From Saprospiraceae bacterium (GTDB lineage: Bacteria; Bacteroidota; Bacteroidia; Chitinophagales; Saprospiraceae): a stretch of 32,485 bases of DNA. The position numbers and the translations under genes are program-made. The notes under the pieces were generated by a model. It was not told the origin of the DNA. It saw nothing but the letters and a program-made list of their open reading frames with translations, and ran no database searches. Below are positions 18,781 to 23,920 of the stretch, piece after piece. Position 1 is the first letter of the stretch. Each line of letters starts with the position of its first letter. Location of the stretch: the NCBI GenBank assembly GCA_021298575.1, contig JAJTFM010000027.1:1-32485 (forward strand), given 5' to 3'.

Positions 18781-21315
18781 ATGCCCCTCAAACCATCTCT
18801 CCTGATTGCCGGTCTTCTGGCGATCCTGCCTGCCGTGCAGGCTCAAACAACCGCCGAATTCGATGTCCTCATCAACGAAATCATGGCCGACCCGACGCCT
18901 CCGCAGGGTCTTCCGGCCGTTGAGTGGCTCGAACTGTTCAACCGGTCTTCTGCCCCGGTCGAGCTCTCTTCTCTCCGGCTGAAAGATGCCACCGGCGCTT
19001 TTTTCCCGCTTCCCGCCTTTTCCCTGTCTCCCGGCGCACTCGTCACGCTCACCGCAAATACCAGCGCAGCCTCGCTTCAGGGCACAGTATCCGGAACGGT
19101 ACTCGGTATTCCGGTTTCTTCCACTTTCCTCAACAACGACGGCGACGAACTCACGCTCGCCGATTCAACTGGCACTGTCATTGACCGGGTCAGTTACTCT
19201 TCTTCCTGGCATACCAGCGCCGCAAAGCGCGATGGCGGCTGGTCACTCGAAAGGATTAATCCCGGACTGCCGTGCCTGGGTTCTTCCAACTGGAATTCCT
19301 GCAACGCACCCGGCGGCGGCACGCCCGGCACCCCCAATTCTCTGCTCTCTCTCACACCCGACGATATAGCCCCTGAATTTTCCGGCATCACCGTCATGTC
19401 GCCCGAATCGCTGAAAGTTTTTTTCTCCGAAGGCATGGCGAAGGACAACCTGACTGACCCGGATGCCTATTTTCTTTACCCACCGGTCACGGTCATTTCT
19501 GCCTCTGTCTCCTCCGACGACAGGTCTTCCGTGTCACTGGAGTTGTCAGAAAGTCTGAAAACCGGTATCATGTACTCACTCGTAGCACCCGATCTTTCGG
19601 ATTGTAGCGGAAACAGTATGCCGGTTACTGATACGCTTCGCTTCGGACGCGCCGAAATACCGGAGCCGGGCGATGTCATCCTCAATGAAATAATGTCCGA
19701 TGCTTTCCCCTCTGCCGGACTGCCCGTCGCAGAATGGCTGGAACTGTATAACCGCTCAGCCAGGGTCGTAAATCTGTCGGCACTGCAAATTCAGGACAAA
19801 ACGGGCTCTCCGGTATCTCTACCCGAATACCTGCTCGGTCCCGGAGAATTCGTCGTTATCTCGGCACTGTCAAATGCAGGCCTGATTAAATCAGTTACTC
19901 ATAATTCCACAGGAGCCCCCCTGAGTACAGTCATGATGAACGACGATGGCGACGCAATCCTGCTCTCCCGCACCGACGGAACCGCTGTTGACAGACTGGA
20001 ATACAGCGCCGACTGGCATAAAACACCCGGAAAATCGGACGGAGGCTGGTCTCTGGAAAGGATTGATCCCGATTTCCCCTGTCCGGGCGCTGTCAACTGG
20101 CAATCGTGCCCGGTACTTCCCGGTGGTACACCAGGCAAACGAAACGCCTCCTTCGGGCGTATCGCCGACTATTCAGCGCCTGCGCTCCTGCGCGCGTACC
20201 CCGAATCCGACCAGGTCATTACGCTGACATTTTCTAAAGCCATGTCGCCGGAATCAGCGACGAATACTGCCAATTATTTCTCTTACCCGACTCTGTTGAT
20301 TGATGAAATAAAACTCACAGTTGATCCGGCCATTGTACAATTGATACTCAGTGAACCAATGGATGAAGTATTCGTCTATCAACTGATACCGGATTCCGGA
20401 TTGTCTGACTGCGCAGGAAACACACTGATTCAACAGGATACAATCCGGTTCGGAATACCTAGTTCACCGGAAAAAAATGACCTGATAATCAACGAAATCA
20501 TGTTCAACCCCAAAACCGGTGAACCCCGCTACGTGGAAATATTTAACGCTGGAAACAAGGTTATTGACTGGAACAAGTGTTTTATCGCCAATCTGTCGGG
20601 CAATATTTCTATCAAACAGGTTATTGCAGAAAGGTTATCACTCCCGGGCGAATATGTAGCCATTACCACAGACACGGGCAGCCTCGCTACCATCTATCAG
20701 GGCATACCAAGGGATAAGCTGCTGAAAAACGACCTTCCTTCCATATATGACTCCGGTGGCAATCTGACTCTGTACTGGGTGTCGGGTACCGATACCACTG
20801 TCCTCGACGAGGTTAATTATGATGAGGACTGGCACAATGCGCTGCTTTCTTATGAAGAGCGCGAAGGGGTCGCGCTGGAGCGCCTGCGCATACGGGGATT
20901 TTCAAATGACCCGCCAAACTGGACTTCAGCCTCGGCAAACAGAACAGGGGCACACGGAACGCCCGCATTGCCCAACACTCAACGAGTTGCCGACAGCCCC
21001 GGCACAGGAAGTGTAGTCCTGATCACTCCTTCAGTTATTTCACCCGATGGCGACGGGCGCGATGATTTTCTTGAAATATTCTACGAGCTGCCCGGAGCAG
21101 GCTATTTTTCCAGTATCACTATTTATGATTCTGACGGTATTCCTGTAAAAAGACTGATGAAAACAGAAATACCCGGAACCACCGGAACGCTTCGCTGGGA
21201 TGGTGACAACGGAAGCGGTTCACGGGTAGCGCCGGGTATTTATATCGCAGCCGTTGAACTTTTTCATCCGGACGGTAAAACTGACCGGATAAAAAAGACT
21301 GCGGCAGTGTATTAG
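18781..21315 (+). CDS. Secreted lamin-tail-domain protein with FlgD/CHU_C-like C-terminus
   Basis: 844 residues with a signal peptide (PSLLIAGLLAILPAVQAQ, cleavage near 22). Three lamin-tail domains start at ~28, ~298 and ~568, each opening with a variant of (D)xxINEIM and the first two ending with DGGWSLERI(N/D)P and GGTPG. Between them lie two bacterial Ig-like domains (~194-293 and ~461-559), each with a (K/Q)-V-x-F-S-(E/K)-(G/A)-M motif and a closing SDCxGN. The C-terminus (~744-844) has SPDGDGRDDF, LRWDGDNGSG and APGIY, as in FlgD-like Ig folds and gliding-associated C-terminal domains, so export by T9SS is likely but not certain. These proteins are cell-surface or extracellular and their binding partners are unknown. 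Its TAG stop lies at the left edge of the foldback element. Confidence 0.85.
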   Translation: MPLKPSLLIAGLLAILPAVQAQTTAEFDVLINEIMADPTPPQGLPAVEWLELFNRSSAPVELSSLRLKDATGAFFPLPAFSLSPGALVTLTANTSAASLQGTVSGTVLGIPVSSTFLNNDGDELTLADSTGTVIDRVSYSSSWHTSAAKRDGGWSLERINPGLPCLGSSNWNSCNAPGGGTPGTPNSLLSLTPDDIAPEFSGITVMSPESLKVFFSEGMAKDNLTDPDAYFLYPPVTVISASVSSDDRSSVSLELSESLKTGIMYSLVAPDLSDCSGNSMPVTDTLRFGRAEIPEPGDVILNEIMSDAFPSAGLPVAEWLELYNRSARVVNLSALQIQDKTGSPVSLPEYLLGPGEFVVISALSNAGLIKSVTHNSTGAPLSTVMMNDDGDAILLSRTDGTAVDRLEYSADWHKTPGKSDGGWSLERIDPDFPCPGAVNWQSCPVLPGGTPGKRNASFGRIADYSAPALLRAYPESDQVITLTFSKAMSPESATNTANYFSYPTLLIDEIKLTVDPAIVQLILSEPMDEVFVYQLIPDSGLSDCAGNTLIQQDTIRFGIPSSPEKNDLIINEIMFNPKTGEPRYVEIFNAGNKVIDWNKCFIANLSGNISIKQVIAERLSLPGEYVAITTDTGSLATIYQGIPRDKLLKNDLPSIYDSGGNLTLYWVSGTDTTVLDEVNYDEDWHNALLSYEEREGVALERLRIRGFSNDPPNWTSASANRTGAHGTPALPNTQRVADSPGTGSVVLITPSVISPDGDGRDDFLEIFYELPGAGYFSSITIYDSDGIPVKRLMKTEIPGTTGTLRWDGDNGSGSRVAPGIYIAAVELFHPDGKTDRIKKTAAVY

Positions 21316-21478
21316 AGCTTGTTCAGGATTCTCTGCCGGTGGCAAAAACAGGCTGATTTTTTGTCAGTTTTTGCTTTTTTGAAGGCGCATAGCCGGAGCT
21401 ACGTAACTGAAAAAAGGTGAAAAATGGCGAAAAATGAGCCGTTTTTGACTCGGTGAGAGAATCCTGAACAAGCTCTTA
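21312..21478. mobile_element. 161-bp foldback (MITE-like) element flanked by TTA direct repeats
   Basis: The element spans 21315-21475. Its ends are perfect 20-bp inverted repeats (GAGCTTGTTC...GATTCTCT at 21315-21334, complement at 21456-21475). TTA stands immediately outside both ends (21312-21314 and 21476-21478), as a target duplication would. The inverted symmetry continues inward: CAAAAAC recurs at offset 29-35 in both arms, with further A/T blocks, and ends at TAGC-CGGA-GCTA (21390-21401), exactly the centre of the element. It encodes no protein. GAG ends and a TNA target are like the IS1031 group of the IS5 family, so it may be a non-autonomous derivative; that origin is inference. 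The RNA would form one very long hairpin on either strand. Confidence 0.75.
21342..21380 (+). terminator. Stem-loop with T-tract inside the foldback element
   Basis: GCAAAAAC (21342-21349) pairs with GTTTTTGC (21367-21374), with an inner TGA/TCA pairing and a run of six T at 21375-21380. It lies 27 bases past the lamin-tail gene stop and can end its transcription. It competes with the whole-element fold, which would itself act on both strands. Confidence 0.45.
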
Positions 21479-23863
21479 GTTCCTGATGAGCTTGCTCACA
21501 CGGCTCTGACCACCTTTACTGCTTTTCAGCACAGCAAAGTACAGTCCGGGCGCCCAGTCAGCTCCAACCTGCACCACGCCTGTGCGCGATTCGAGTTGCC
21601 GGTTCAGAATAACCTGACCCAGGATATTGCGCACCTCCAGAACGGGTGCCTCAGTCACCGTTTCCCAGGCGTACTGCAGGGAGAACGATGATGATGACGG
21701 ATTCGGAGCAGCTGTTAATACAGCATTGACATCGGGCTCAACAACCGGGCTGACTGCTGTCGGCACGACCCTGAAGACATCCACGGCAGCCTCCACGAGG
21801 TGACCGGGCTGATCATCGGAAGCCACGAACTGAATACGCACATCATCGCTGAGTGGCACATAGTTGCTGAGTTCGATTTCTCCGGAATAGCGCCACTGAC
21901 TGGATGAAACGGTTTCGGTAAATATGGTAACCGTCTGTCCGCTGCTGATCACGCTTACTGTGAACTTGTCGTTGGGGCTGGTACCTTGTCCACCGTTGTT
22001 AAAGAACCAGTAATAAAAGGAGAGTTTGGCTTTGCCTCCAGACAGTTTCATGGCCGGGGTGGTGAGGGTAACCGAGCCATTGTCCACATCGTCGGAGCCG
22101 GCATCGCCGCCGCCATTGCCGGTGACATAGCACTGGTCGTTATTGTCAGAATTTAGGTCAAAATCAGTATTTGCAGGACTTCCCTGATACTGGGTTCCTG
22201 CAGGTTCTCCAAGTTCCCACAGACCCGTTGGAGAGACAGCAGAGGTTGTCCAGCCGAGATCGAGCTGGAAGTCGTCGTAATAGCCGCGCTCCAGCGCAAT
22301 ACTGTAAGTACCATTACTGTTTGGCTGTGCAGATTTTGGCAGATAGCCCCAGGCACCAGCCGTAGCAGTATAGTTGGCAGCCGCTATGCAATTCAGCGTA
22401 AACTGACCACTGGCATCTGTAACCGCGCTGAAATTCTGGGACGGAGATGTCAGAATGACCGTTGCACTGGGTATCGGATTTCCAGTTTCAGCATCCGTGA
22501 CAACACCGGTAACATCGGCAGTACTTTCGGGAGCAAGCGTTACATTTATTTCTGTTGCTACCGCACGGGTAAAGGTGAAAGGTATGGTCTGTGTGACAAA
22601 CCCGGGCTTGCTGATGGTCACAACGTAGTCGCCCGGATTTACATACCCCGTTTTGAAAGTGCCTGTTGCATCAGTCGTGGTGTTCACCCGGTCATCGGGT
22701 GTGTTCACCGTGATAGTTGCTCCGTTCATCGGATTGCCATCGCAGCCATTGGTGACCGAACCCACCAGATAACACGCGCGCTCGTACGTGGGCGTGAGTA
22801 CCGTCAGTTTTCCCGGATCAATATCAGAAGTGACTATCGTTCCGGAGGGGAAATACGGGAATGCTCCCCAACAGCCCTCAAACGGATCATTAGGGTTGGT
22901 AGCAGGTGCCCAGGTATCGTAGCGAGCTACTTCAACGAGAATATCGGGACGGTGCGCATCAACAATGGTCACACCATCGGTGTACCAGGATGTAATAGCC
23001 CAGTCGTTCAGTACGTGTGTATTGTGCCCGATAGTGGGCGTTCCCGATACCGTAGTGGCAACCCTGTCGAGTTCGCGGATGTCTTCCGGGTTACTGATGT
23101 CGTAGCTTGCGACAAATGAAGCTGTCTTCTCGTCAGTTGTCAGAATGTGTTTGTGATCGTCGAGCAGCCAGGCGTTGTGGGTAAATTTTGCCGGGGTGAG
23201 TACCGTGCCAAGCAGGGCCGGTGCACTCTTGTTCGACATGTCCACGATAGAAAGCTGTCCGGTGTAGATGTGTGCCGCATACAGCGTATCATTGTCAGCG
23301 TAACCATCGTGGATGTAGCCGAGCTGATCAAATTTTCCGGCATAAGTCGGATTGTACGGATTGGCAAGACTGAGTACTACCGCACCTCCGCTGAAAAGGT
23401 TGCTGCCGTAAGCATACAAATACCCTTTTTTCACGTCAATGTGTAATGCGTGAATGGTGTTGAGTTGTCCGTCAATCGCTCCGTCTCCCTTGTAATTCTT
23501 GTGGGGGAGATCCGGCGATGGAAGAGGGCTCATGTCCACAATCTGAACACCTTGTCCGCCCTCTGACGTGACATAAGCGTAGTGACCATACACCTTGATT
23601 TCCTTCCAGAGGTTATCGGGGCCCGGTATCTGAACAATCTGCTGTGGAGCATCGGGATTGGTGATATCCACAATAATAAGCCCCTTTGAACCGCCAAGCA
23701 GGGCATATTCGCGCCCGTCCTGGGTATAGCCGCAGATGTTGGCGAGCGTCTGCCCGGGGAATGTCATGGTTGAACGCAACTGAAAATTGTAGTCCTGCGC
23801 AAAAACCGGCCAGGAAATGGCCGTTAAAGCCAGGTACAGAAAGTAATGAGTAAGTTTCTTCAT
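21476..23863 (-). CDS. Choice-of-anchor B family protein with T9SS sorting domain
   Basis: 795 residues from the ATG at 23863; an in-frame ATG 48 bases upstream would place non-signal residues ahead of the signal peptide (KKLTHYFLYLALTAISWPVFAQ), so it is not chosen. Residues ~20-365 hold LVIVD-type repeats of the choice-of-anchor B family (GLIIVDITNPDAPQQI, GVQIVDMS, AWLLDDHKHILTTDE, GCWGAFPYFPSGTIVTSDID). Two carboxypeptidase-regulatory-like beta domains follow (~365-445 and ~447-525), then a jelly-roll-like region beginning YYDDFQLDLGW (~526-700) with a QCYVTGNGGGDAGSDDVD calcium-like loop. A type A T9SS sorting domain (~714-795) has AAPNPSSSSFSL, LEVRNILGQVI, LAPGLYF-like WAPGLYFAVL and a terminal KLIRN. 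Exported and probably anchored or released at the cell surface. Its TAA stop is the right-hand TTA of the foldback element. Confidence 0.88.
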   Translation of the reverse strand: MKKLTHYFLYLALTAISWPVFAQDYNFQLRSTMTFPGQTLANICGYTQDGREYALLGGSKGLIIVDITNPDAPQQIVQIPGPDNLWKEIKVYGHYAYVTSEGGQGVQIVDMSPLPSPDLPHKNYKGDGAIDGQLNTIHALHIDVKKGYLYAYGSNLFSGGAVVLSLANPYNPTYAGKFDQLGYIHDGYADNDTLYAAHIYTGQLSIVDMSNKSAPALLGTVLTPAKFTHNAWLLDDHKHILTTDEKTASFVASYDISNPEDIRELDRVATTVSGTPTIGHNTHVLNDWAITSWYTDGVTIVDAHRPDILVEVARYDTWAPATNPNDPFEGCWGAFPYFPSGTIVTSDIDPGKLTVLTPTYERACYLVGSVTNGCDGNPMNGATITVNTPDDRVNTTTDATGTFKTGYVNPGDYVVTISKPGFVTQTIPFTFTRAVATEINVTLAPESTADVTGVVTDAETGNPIPSATVILTSPSQNFSAVTDASGQFTLNCIAAANYTATAGAWGYLPKSAQPNSNGTYSIALERGYYDDFQLDLGWTTSAVSPTGLWELGEPAGTQYQGSPANTDFDLNSDNNDQCYVTGNGGGDAGSDDVDNGSVTLTTPAMKLSGGKAKLSFYYWFFNNGGQGTSPNDKFTVSVISSGQTVTIFTETVSSSQWRYSGEIELSNYVPLSDDVRIQFVASDDQPGHLVEAAVDVFRVVPTAVSPVVEPDVNAVLTAAPNPSSSSFSLQYAWETVTEAPVLEVRNILGQVILNRQLESRTGVVQVGADWAPGLYFAVLKSSKGGQSRVSKLIRN

Positions 23864-23876: not shown

Positions 23877-23920
23877 AGTGTGTGCTGTGTTTGTTCGGGT
23901 AGGGGGTGCAAAAATAGGTT

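Follow-up and report, generated by a model that had tools for sequence, protein, structure and literature searches.

An element between two overlapping stop codons

How a 161-bp palindrome came to lie exactly where the stop codons of two convergent genes overlap, and yet left both codons intact, is the question raised by a 32,485-nucleotide stretch of DNA from a Saprospiraceae bacterium (assembly GCA_021298575.1, contig JAJTFM010000027.1, positions 1 to 32,485; this whole stretch is hereafter called the window). We propose, with a probability of roughly 0.88, that the palindrome is a non-autonomous miniature inverted-repeat transposable element (MITE) moved in trans by a transposase of the insertion sequence (IS) family IS5, duplicating a TNA triplet, settling at stop codons mostly without harm and carrying exchangeable ends on a conserved core. 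The insertion in the window is an ordinary act of such an element, although an unusually neat one; the surprise is the conserved core with its changing ends.

The element is a mobile, non-autonomous MITE; at 161 bp it is too short to hold a transposase gene, and at least 60 distinct full copies exist in the host genome. The end patterns matched that genome 116 times in the forward and 95 times in the reverse direction, and BLAST in 112 fetched host loci resolved 120 element places, 61 of them full (60 distinct) and 59 partial, with duplicates removed for the full copies only; copy numbers given here are lower bounds, part of the candidates having been scored per genome (e.g. 40 of 224). Identical triplets, TTA or TAA, flank 43 of the 60 full copies. 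Matches were obtained in 14 of 40 genomes searched (host included), all 14 of the same genus. In the close relative G001 the orthologous gene pair (identity 77% on one side and 81% on the other) is free of the element, and the empty site reads ATATTAGTTTC, with a single TTA and both stops present. The first-pass annotation, made from the sequence of the window, had taken the palindrome for a mobile element and had called for an orthologous pair lacking it, and on both points it was right. The palindrome is neither a single-copy sequence without similar ends elsewhere nor a hairpin present in all relatives with no empty site. That it is an ancestral, immobile terminator, as its location between convergent genes might suggest, is hardly conceivable: the empty site of G001 refutes this, and the distinct full copies and target duplications also speak against it. 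A second empty site was sought at the copy in locus L003, for which G001 has the right-gene orthologue, but the left side is rearranged and the site was unusable. Plasmid records gave no match for a flanking gene or for an element locus of genome G214.

The features of the insertion are as follows.

21315-21475, + strand: palindromic MITE, 161 bp (sequence, copy searches, alignment, empty site)
21312-21314, no strand: left copy of the TTA target duplication (sequence, empty site, flank tabulation)
21476-21478, no strand: right copy of the TTA target duplication (sequence, empty site, flank tabulation)
21315-21334, + strand: left terminal inverted repeat, 20 bp
21456-21475, - strand: right terminal inverted repeat, 20 bp
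21313-21315, + strand: TAG stop of the lamin-tail gene, its last base being the first G of the element
21476-21478, - strand: TAA stop of the gene with a type IX secretion system (T9SS) domain, identical with the right TTA
18781-21315, + strand: lamin-tail-domain gene (PF00932, E 1.6e-44)
21476-23863, - strand: choice-of-anchor B gene with T9SS sorting domain (TIGR04312, TIGR04183; start uncertain, the open reading frame opening at 23911)

The inverted ends (GAGCTTGTTCAGGATTCTCT) are perfect over 20 bp and TTA stands on both sides, as first described; the TAGC-CGGA-GCTA tip lies at 21390-21401, half a base off the exact centre. The description of the element as fully palindromic overstates its symmetry, which is imperfect: self-alignment of the window copy gives 80 pairs, of which 60 are Watson-Crick, 6 G-T, 3 A-C and 11 other. 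The insertion did split two overlapping stop codons and keep both (TAG at 21313-21315 on the + strand, TAA at 21478-21476 on the - strand), because the first G of the element rebuilds TAG and the right TTA, read on the other strand, is TAA.

Several variants of the element were seen in the host genome. At seven loci (L067, L073, L086, L094, L101, L107 and L108) the contig breaks off after 109-113 bp of the element. The element itself thus seems to interrupt the assembly, many of the partial copies are likely assembly breaks, and one-ended transposition is not needed as a source of the 59 partial copies. Short derivatives of 49-85 bp that lack the core and keep both ends occur in L057 (1995-2052), L075 (1994-2052), L089 (1983-2040), L091 (3421-3469), L093 (1996-2071) and L087 (5399-5483); they look like in-place deletions, since their deletion endpoints mostly differ (L057 and L089 have a common interior). 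A 151-bp subfamily (loci with elements of 149-151 bp, e.g. L070 1895-2045, in which 10 bp of one arm are missing) accounts for 10 copies in the length count. Back-to-back element ends with three bases between them are found in L041 (1488-1528), L048 (1655-1695) and L080 (2007-2047), as though one element had gone into the target triplet of another.

Stop codons as insertion sites

The window copy had led to the suggestion of a class of elements tied to convergent 3' ends. This is not borne out: the 60 full host copies lie between tandem genes in 30 cases, divergent genes in 14 and convergent genes in 13, with 3 unresolved, and a preference for convergent genes was rejected on these counts. It is the stop codon that recurs as a site. 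Gene calls behind the pair settings and the stop tests came from our own codon-score script, not from a standard gene finder; the element and one triplet were removed by script, and other noncoding TTA/TAA sites of the same loci served as the null. Stop codons were overlapped by 24 of 54 noncoding insertions in the host genome (the 60 copies minus 4 coding and 2 at locus edges) versus 55 of 699 comparable sites (7.9%; p = 4e-13), and in 19 of the 54 the triplet is a whole TAA stop. In genome G020 of the same genus, where 20 stretches round 21 places yielded 19 full copies (partials dropped) and the exclusion of 2 coding ones left 17, the overlap is 6 of 17 versus 26 of 370 sites (p = 0.0008). 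Chance as the cause of the seating was rejected by the same-locus null. Only two of the 60 host copies, the window copy and that in L003, strike the stops of two genes. The protein remains intact after such an insertion because TTA/TAA contains a TAA stop and the terminal G and C of the element rebuild TAG; the seating shows how an element of this kind can spread through a compact genome and do its genes little harm.

The same enrichment, found in both genomes, could also arise if the hairpin ended transcription of the gene whose stop precedes it and selection kept such insertions. A mobile terminator of this sort would fit the orientation at whole-TAA stops of the host genome, which is 17 versus 2 (p = 0.0007), non-stop triplets with identical flanks being near even (11 TTA versus 10 TAA, two locus-edge copies included). 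It would also fit a predicted stem-loop with a following U-run near the right end of the element:

21436-21451, - strand: terminator-like stem-loop within the element, with ATTTTT after it (a consensus match; 3 such sites occur in 1.2 kb, where shuffles average 1.2)

However, the local hairpin-plus-U signal is in most cases stronger at the opposite end of the element (the C-end is the stronger in only 3 of 38), the full hairpin in the window has no U-run after it, and the orientation bias is absent in G020, where whole-TAA stops are divided 2 to 2. We consider a mobile terminator doubtful. A directional terminator is not supported by the local hairpin-plus-U scan, whose signals fail to account for the stop orientation observed. 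For the bidirectional terminator suggested by the first-pass annotation, one weak terminator-like site, the stem-loop given above, was found within the element.

IS elements with matching ends

The earlier expectation of ends of the IS5-family kind is supported by IS elements in relatives of the host. Four such elements of 856-872 bp (one of them, in L160, cut by a contig end) have GAGC.TGTT ends and encode transposases of 253-258 aa, and all four transposases match NCBIfam transpos_IS5_3 as well as DUF4096 and DDE_Tnp_1. Three of the four have TTA on both sides. The G052 IS has a 19-bp end (GAGCGTGTTCGGGAATTTT) that recurs unchanged at both ends of a G006 MITE, and in G016 an IS end and the left MITE end have one difference in 19 bases. 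A profile of the four transposases has matches at E 1e-10 in 16 of the 42 genomes of the genus, a large share of them fragments; in the host genome it finds two fragments only (the relic G000:C34, and C169), and a PF01609 search of that genome gave no matches. The search for an IS5-family transposase with matching ends was thus successful in relatives, but the host genome yielded relics only. The matching IS ends suggest that the MITE is mobilized in trans by an IS5-family transposase. The relic G000:C34, at about 590-975 of L209, is an internally deleted element of IS5 type with end-like sequences similar to the MITE family on both sides.

A palindrome maintained inside the element

With both TTA copies included (167 nt), the window element folds as RNA at -91.1 kcal/mol on the + strand (z -12.2) and -69.4 kcal/mol on the - strand (z -10.4), and on neither strand did any of 200 shuffles reach that stability. 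Aligned over 161 columns, 38 sequences (10 from the host and 28 from loci of relatives, several of the same species) show a single gap. When the fold of the window copy is laid on it, the paired cells amount to 93.7%, and a compensatory double change is seen in 24 of 69 pairs; none of 500 shuffles reached the pairing fraction or the double-change count. The palindrome is therefore maintained inside the element, beyond its ends. This maintenance may result from selection, or from arm-to-arm template switching, which would leave the same pattern.

One form of selection would act on RNA, the hairpin transcribed from the + strand being the functional unit. The + strand folds better in all 60 host copies, in 33 of 33 distinct sequences from relatives and in 17 of 19 elements selected by their tip (see below); the compensatory changes agree with it, as do the self-alignments of the 38 sequences, in which 254 G-U and 117 A-C cells are counted, and the 42 copies of exactly 161 bp, in which rare changes lead to G-U 20 times and to A-C 6 times. 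Over 94 copies of at least 60 bp, however, the rarest changes (in two copies or fewer) are 23 to G-U and 19 to A-C, and a looser cut gives 32 versus 20 (p = 0.13). The strand asymmetry resides largely in a few G-U pairs common to nearly all sequences, L286 and L295, both selected by their tip, have their better fold on the - strand, and template switching between arms would likewise produce compensatory changes. A search of Rfam with a limit of E 1 gave 12 matches, spread over five loci (L001, L027, L031, L247 and L249), all below the gathering score, so the element is not placed in any RNA family by these matches. Since the 20-to-6 subset is not clearly upheld over the 94 copies, selection at the RNA level is not claimed, and we regard it as unlikely. 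A count by pure mirror pairing (201 G-U and 187 A-C cells) was set aside because the arms are out of strict register. Beside an element of genome G139, positions 1696-1783 of L249 (- strand) match the Flavo-1 RNA family at 33 bits (gathering score 42).

A core conserved beyond the genus

A covariance model of the 38-sequence alignment found full-length relatives in 36 of 298 genomes of the order, belonging to 24 of 140 genera and three families (E-values rough; 9 candidates scored per genome). The ends of these relatives differ, and the tip is much alike. The parts of the window copy concerned are the following.

21350-21441, + strand: approximate core conserved beyond the genus (identity profile; limits soft, the outermost arms near background)
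21388-21407, + strand: tip CATAGC-CGGA-GCTACGTAAC, which matches the motif of the tip-only search

As the covariance model itself contains the tip, a search by the tip only was run. The pattern CATAGC-N2..5-GCTACGYRAC occurs at 289 places in 27 of 396 genomes of the order and 22 of 164 genera, 209 of them outside the host genome, versus 15 places in 14 genomes for a reversed control pattern; three or more matches were found in 13 genomes with the tip pattern and in none with the control. The pattern misses relatives: not one match was obtained in G020, which has at least 19 full copies. A related tip is present in 26 stretches from metagenome-assembled genomes of Saprospiraceae, Saprospirales, Chitinophagales or Bacteroidota. 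Among 30 loci fetched by the tip, 19 have it at the centre of an inverted element of 153-170 bp (boundaries set by script), 3 are clipped by a contig end and 8 lack inverted ends; these 19 include L291 and L292 of the same genus (L292 from the host genome) and three, L280, L281 and L297, that the covariance model also found.

Identity falls from the tip outward. For 27 model-selected elements it is 0.38-0.59 at 3-53 bp from the tip and 0.30-0.34 beyond; for 10 tip-selected ones it is 0.41-0.67 up to 23 bp (the first stretch inflated by pattern-fixed columns), 0.29-0.32 at 23-33 bp, 0.43-0.44 at 33-43 bp and 0.22-0.34 beyond. The likeness could in principle mean only that the centres of palindromes have converged and that a structure model picks them up: the covariance model includes the tip and gives credit to palindromes of every sort, and single tip matches in three further families (L277-L279) have no inverted ends. 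The excess of tip matches over the control argues against convergence, as does the inverted element at 19 of 27 unclipped tip loci versus 3 of 820 random positions, and so does the identity between cores of different end classes given below; we consider convergence quite improbable. The core is spread over genera and families of one order, yet it is present in a minority of the sampled genomes.

Related cores within different ends

Related cores sit within ends of different kinds. Ends were classed by script on 48 entries, which are 47 distinct places (L248 is L280) and include the window copy and two others of its genus. Junctions were TNA in 15 entries, ANT in 9, other short repeats in 8, CTAG in 6, repeats of 8 bp in 2 and of 6 bp in 1, and none in 7; boundaries are best fits, and a one-base shift of frame puts some AGAC-type ends into TNA or "other". 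Four of the CTAG entries repeat CTAG outside the ends and two have it only as part of the ends, the 6-bp case (ACTAGT) is of CTAG type by eye, and the 8-bp cases, ATAAATTG and TCTATTTT, go with GTAACT ends. Genome G223 alone has ANT-type elements together with others that have CTAG ends. Core identity averages 0.55 over the 129 pairs from one end class and 0.49 over the 336 pairs from different classes, versus 0.27 for composition-shuffled cores.

Duplications of TNA, ANT, CTAG and 8 bp typically belong to different IS5 subgroups. NCTAGN is also given as the target of an IS481 element in the part of the IS account compared (PMC2516522). A partner IS for the non-TNA classes was not found with PF01609 in 14 genomes, 9 of which gave matches, with 30 loci scanned for matching ends; an IS of G223 with loosely similar ends was not accepted as a partner. 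A bolder reading is that an ancient hairpin core of roughly 60-100 bp propagates in this order of Bacteroidota by exchanging its ends, the core being the heritable unit, a parasite of many IS elements whose tip would be recognised by a host or otherwise common factor. Since one core is found within at least three junction types (3-bp TNA or ANT, CTAG and 8 bp), several unrelated transposases would be implied. We hold this reading tentatively and give it slightly less than an even chance.

Proposed mechanism

In the proposed mechanism, an IS5-family transposase supplied in trans would recognise the 20-bp ends of the element, and each insertion duplicates a T-N-A triplet, as the flanks and the empty site show. 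Seating at stop codons would be mainly harmless, perhaps with some target preference. The ends would be exchangeable and the central hairpin core the better conserved part of a wider group; as it is better conserved than the ends, the core probably serves the element's own propagation or stability.

Several observations weigh against this proposal. Flanking triplets are non-identical in 17 of the 60 full host copies, and the fourth IS (L160) is flanked by TTA and TAA, which do not match. An intact transposase with GAGCTTGTTCAGGATTCTC ends was not found in the host genome, an assembly of 250 contigs with a completeness of 87% and with breaks at repeats. Beyond TNA, no target motif is evident. 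Divergent regions are not avoided, taking 12 of 30 non-stop insertions versus 172 of 644 sites, so mere tolerance may not suffice to account for the stop enrichment.

MITEs are usually viewed as the leftovers of one IS and are defined by their ends; here it is the middle that outlasts the ends, over different genera, families and kinds of junction. By what route a non-autonomous element switches from one transposase to another, and what role the conserved tip of its hairpin plays, can be tested directly in this family. No earlier description of it was found in the titles or abstract openings of papers from a collection whose full texts are limited to openly licensed ones, which does not show that none exists.

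Comparison with known systems

Seating near stop codons is a feature of the YPAL/RU-2 elements of Yersinia. As far as the account compared extends, these are palindromic and intergenic, about 168 bp long, and their filled and empty sites have been compared between species (PMC2229807), so that they resemble the window element in size, palindrome and mobility; they differ in having internal inverted repeats and duplications of 3-26 bp, whereas the window element has terminal 20-bp repeats and 3-bp duplications. NEMIS/Correia, ERIC and RUP are MITE-like repeats too, with transcripts that form stem-loops (PMC2229807), but they have TA-type termini and other sizes, and the account compared mentions no common core with exchangeable ends.

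The GTAG REPs and REPINs are likewise repeated palindromes near genes, and those of the GTAG type often have ends that provide neighbouring open reading frames with their TAG stop, according to the part of the source compared (PMC3733652). There they are described as 20-40 bp long, with GTAG at one end and RAYT transposases of the IS200/IS605 family; the window element, in contrast, is 161 bp long and has GAG..CTC ends, target duplications and the ends of a DDE-type IS.

In its ends the window element is akin to IS1237, an IS5-family element listed with ends GAGGTGGTTT.. and direct repeats TTA (TAA) in the part of the account compared (PMC2516522), and to MITEs linked with this family. Like these MITEs, the window element has GAG-type ends and a TTA/TAA duplication, is present in many copies and has no room for a transposase gene. 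Over the stretches of the ends that were compared, the likeness of the window family to IS elements does not extend past the ends themselves. Unlike IS5-linked MITEs, the window element is palindromic nearly throughout, has a fixed length of 161 bp and shares its core with elements that have other ends.

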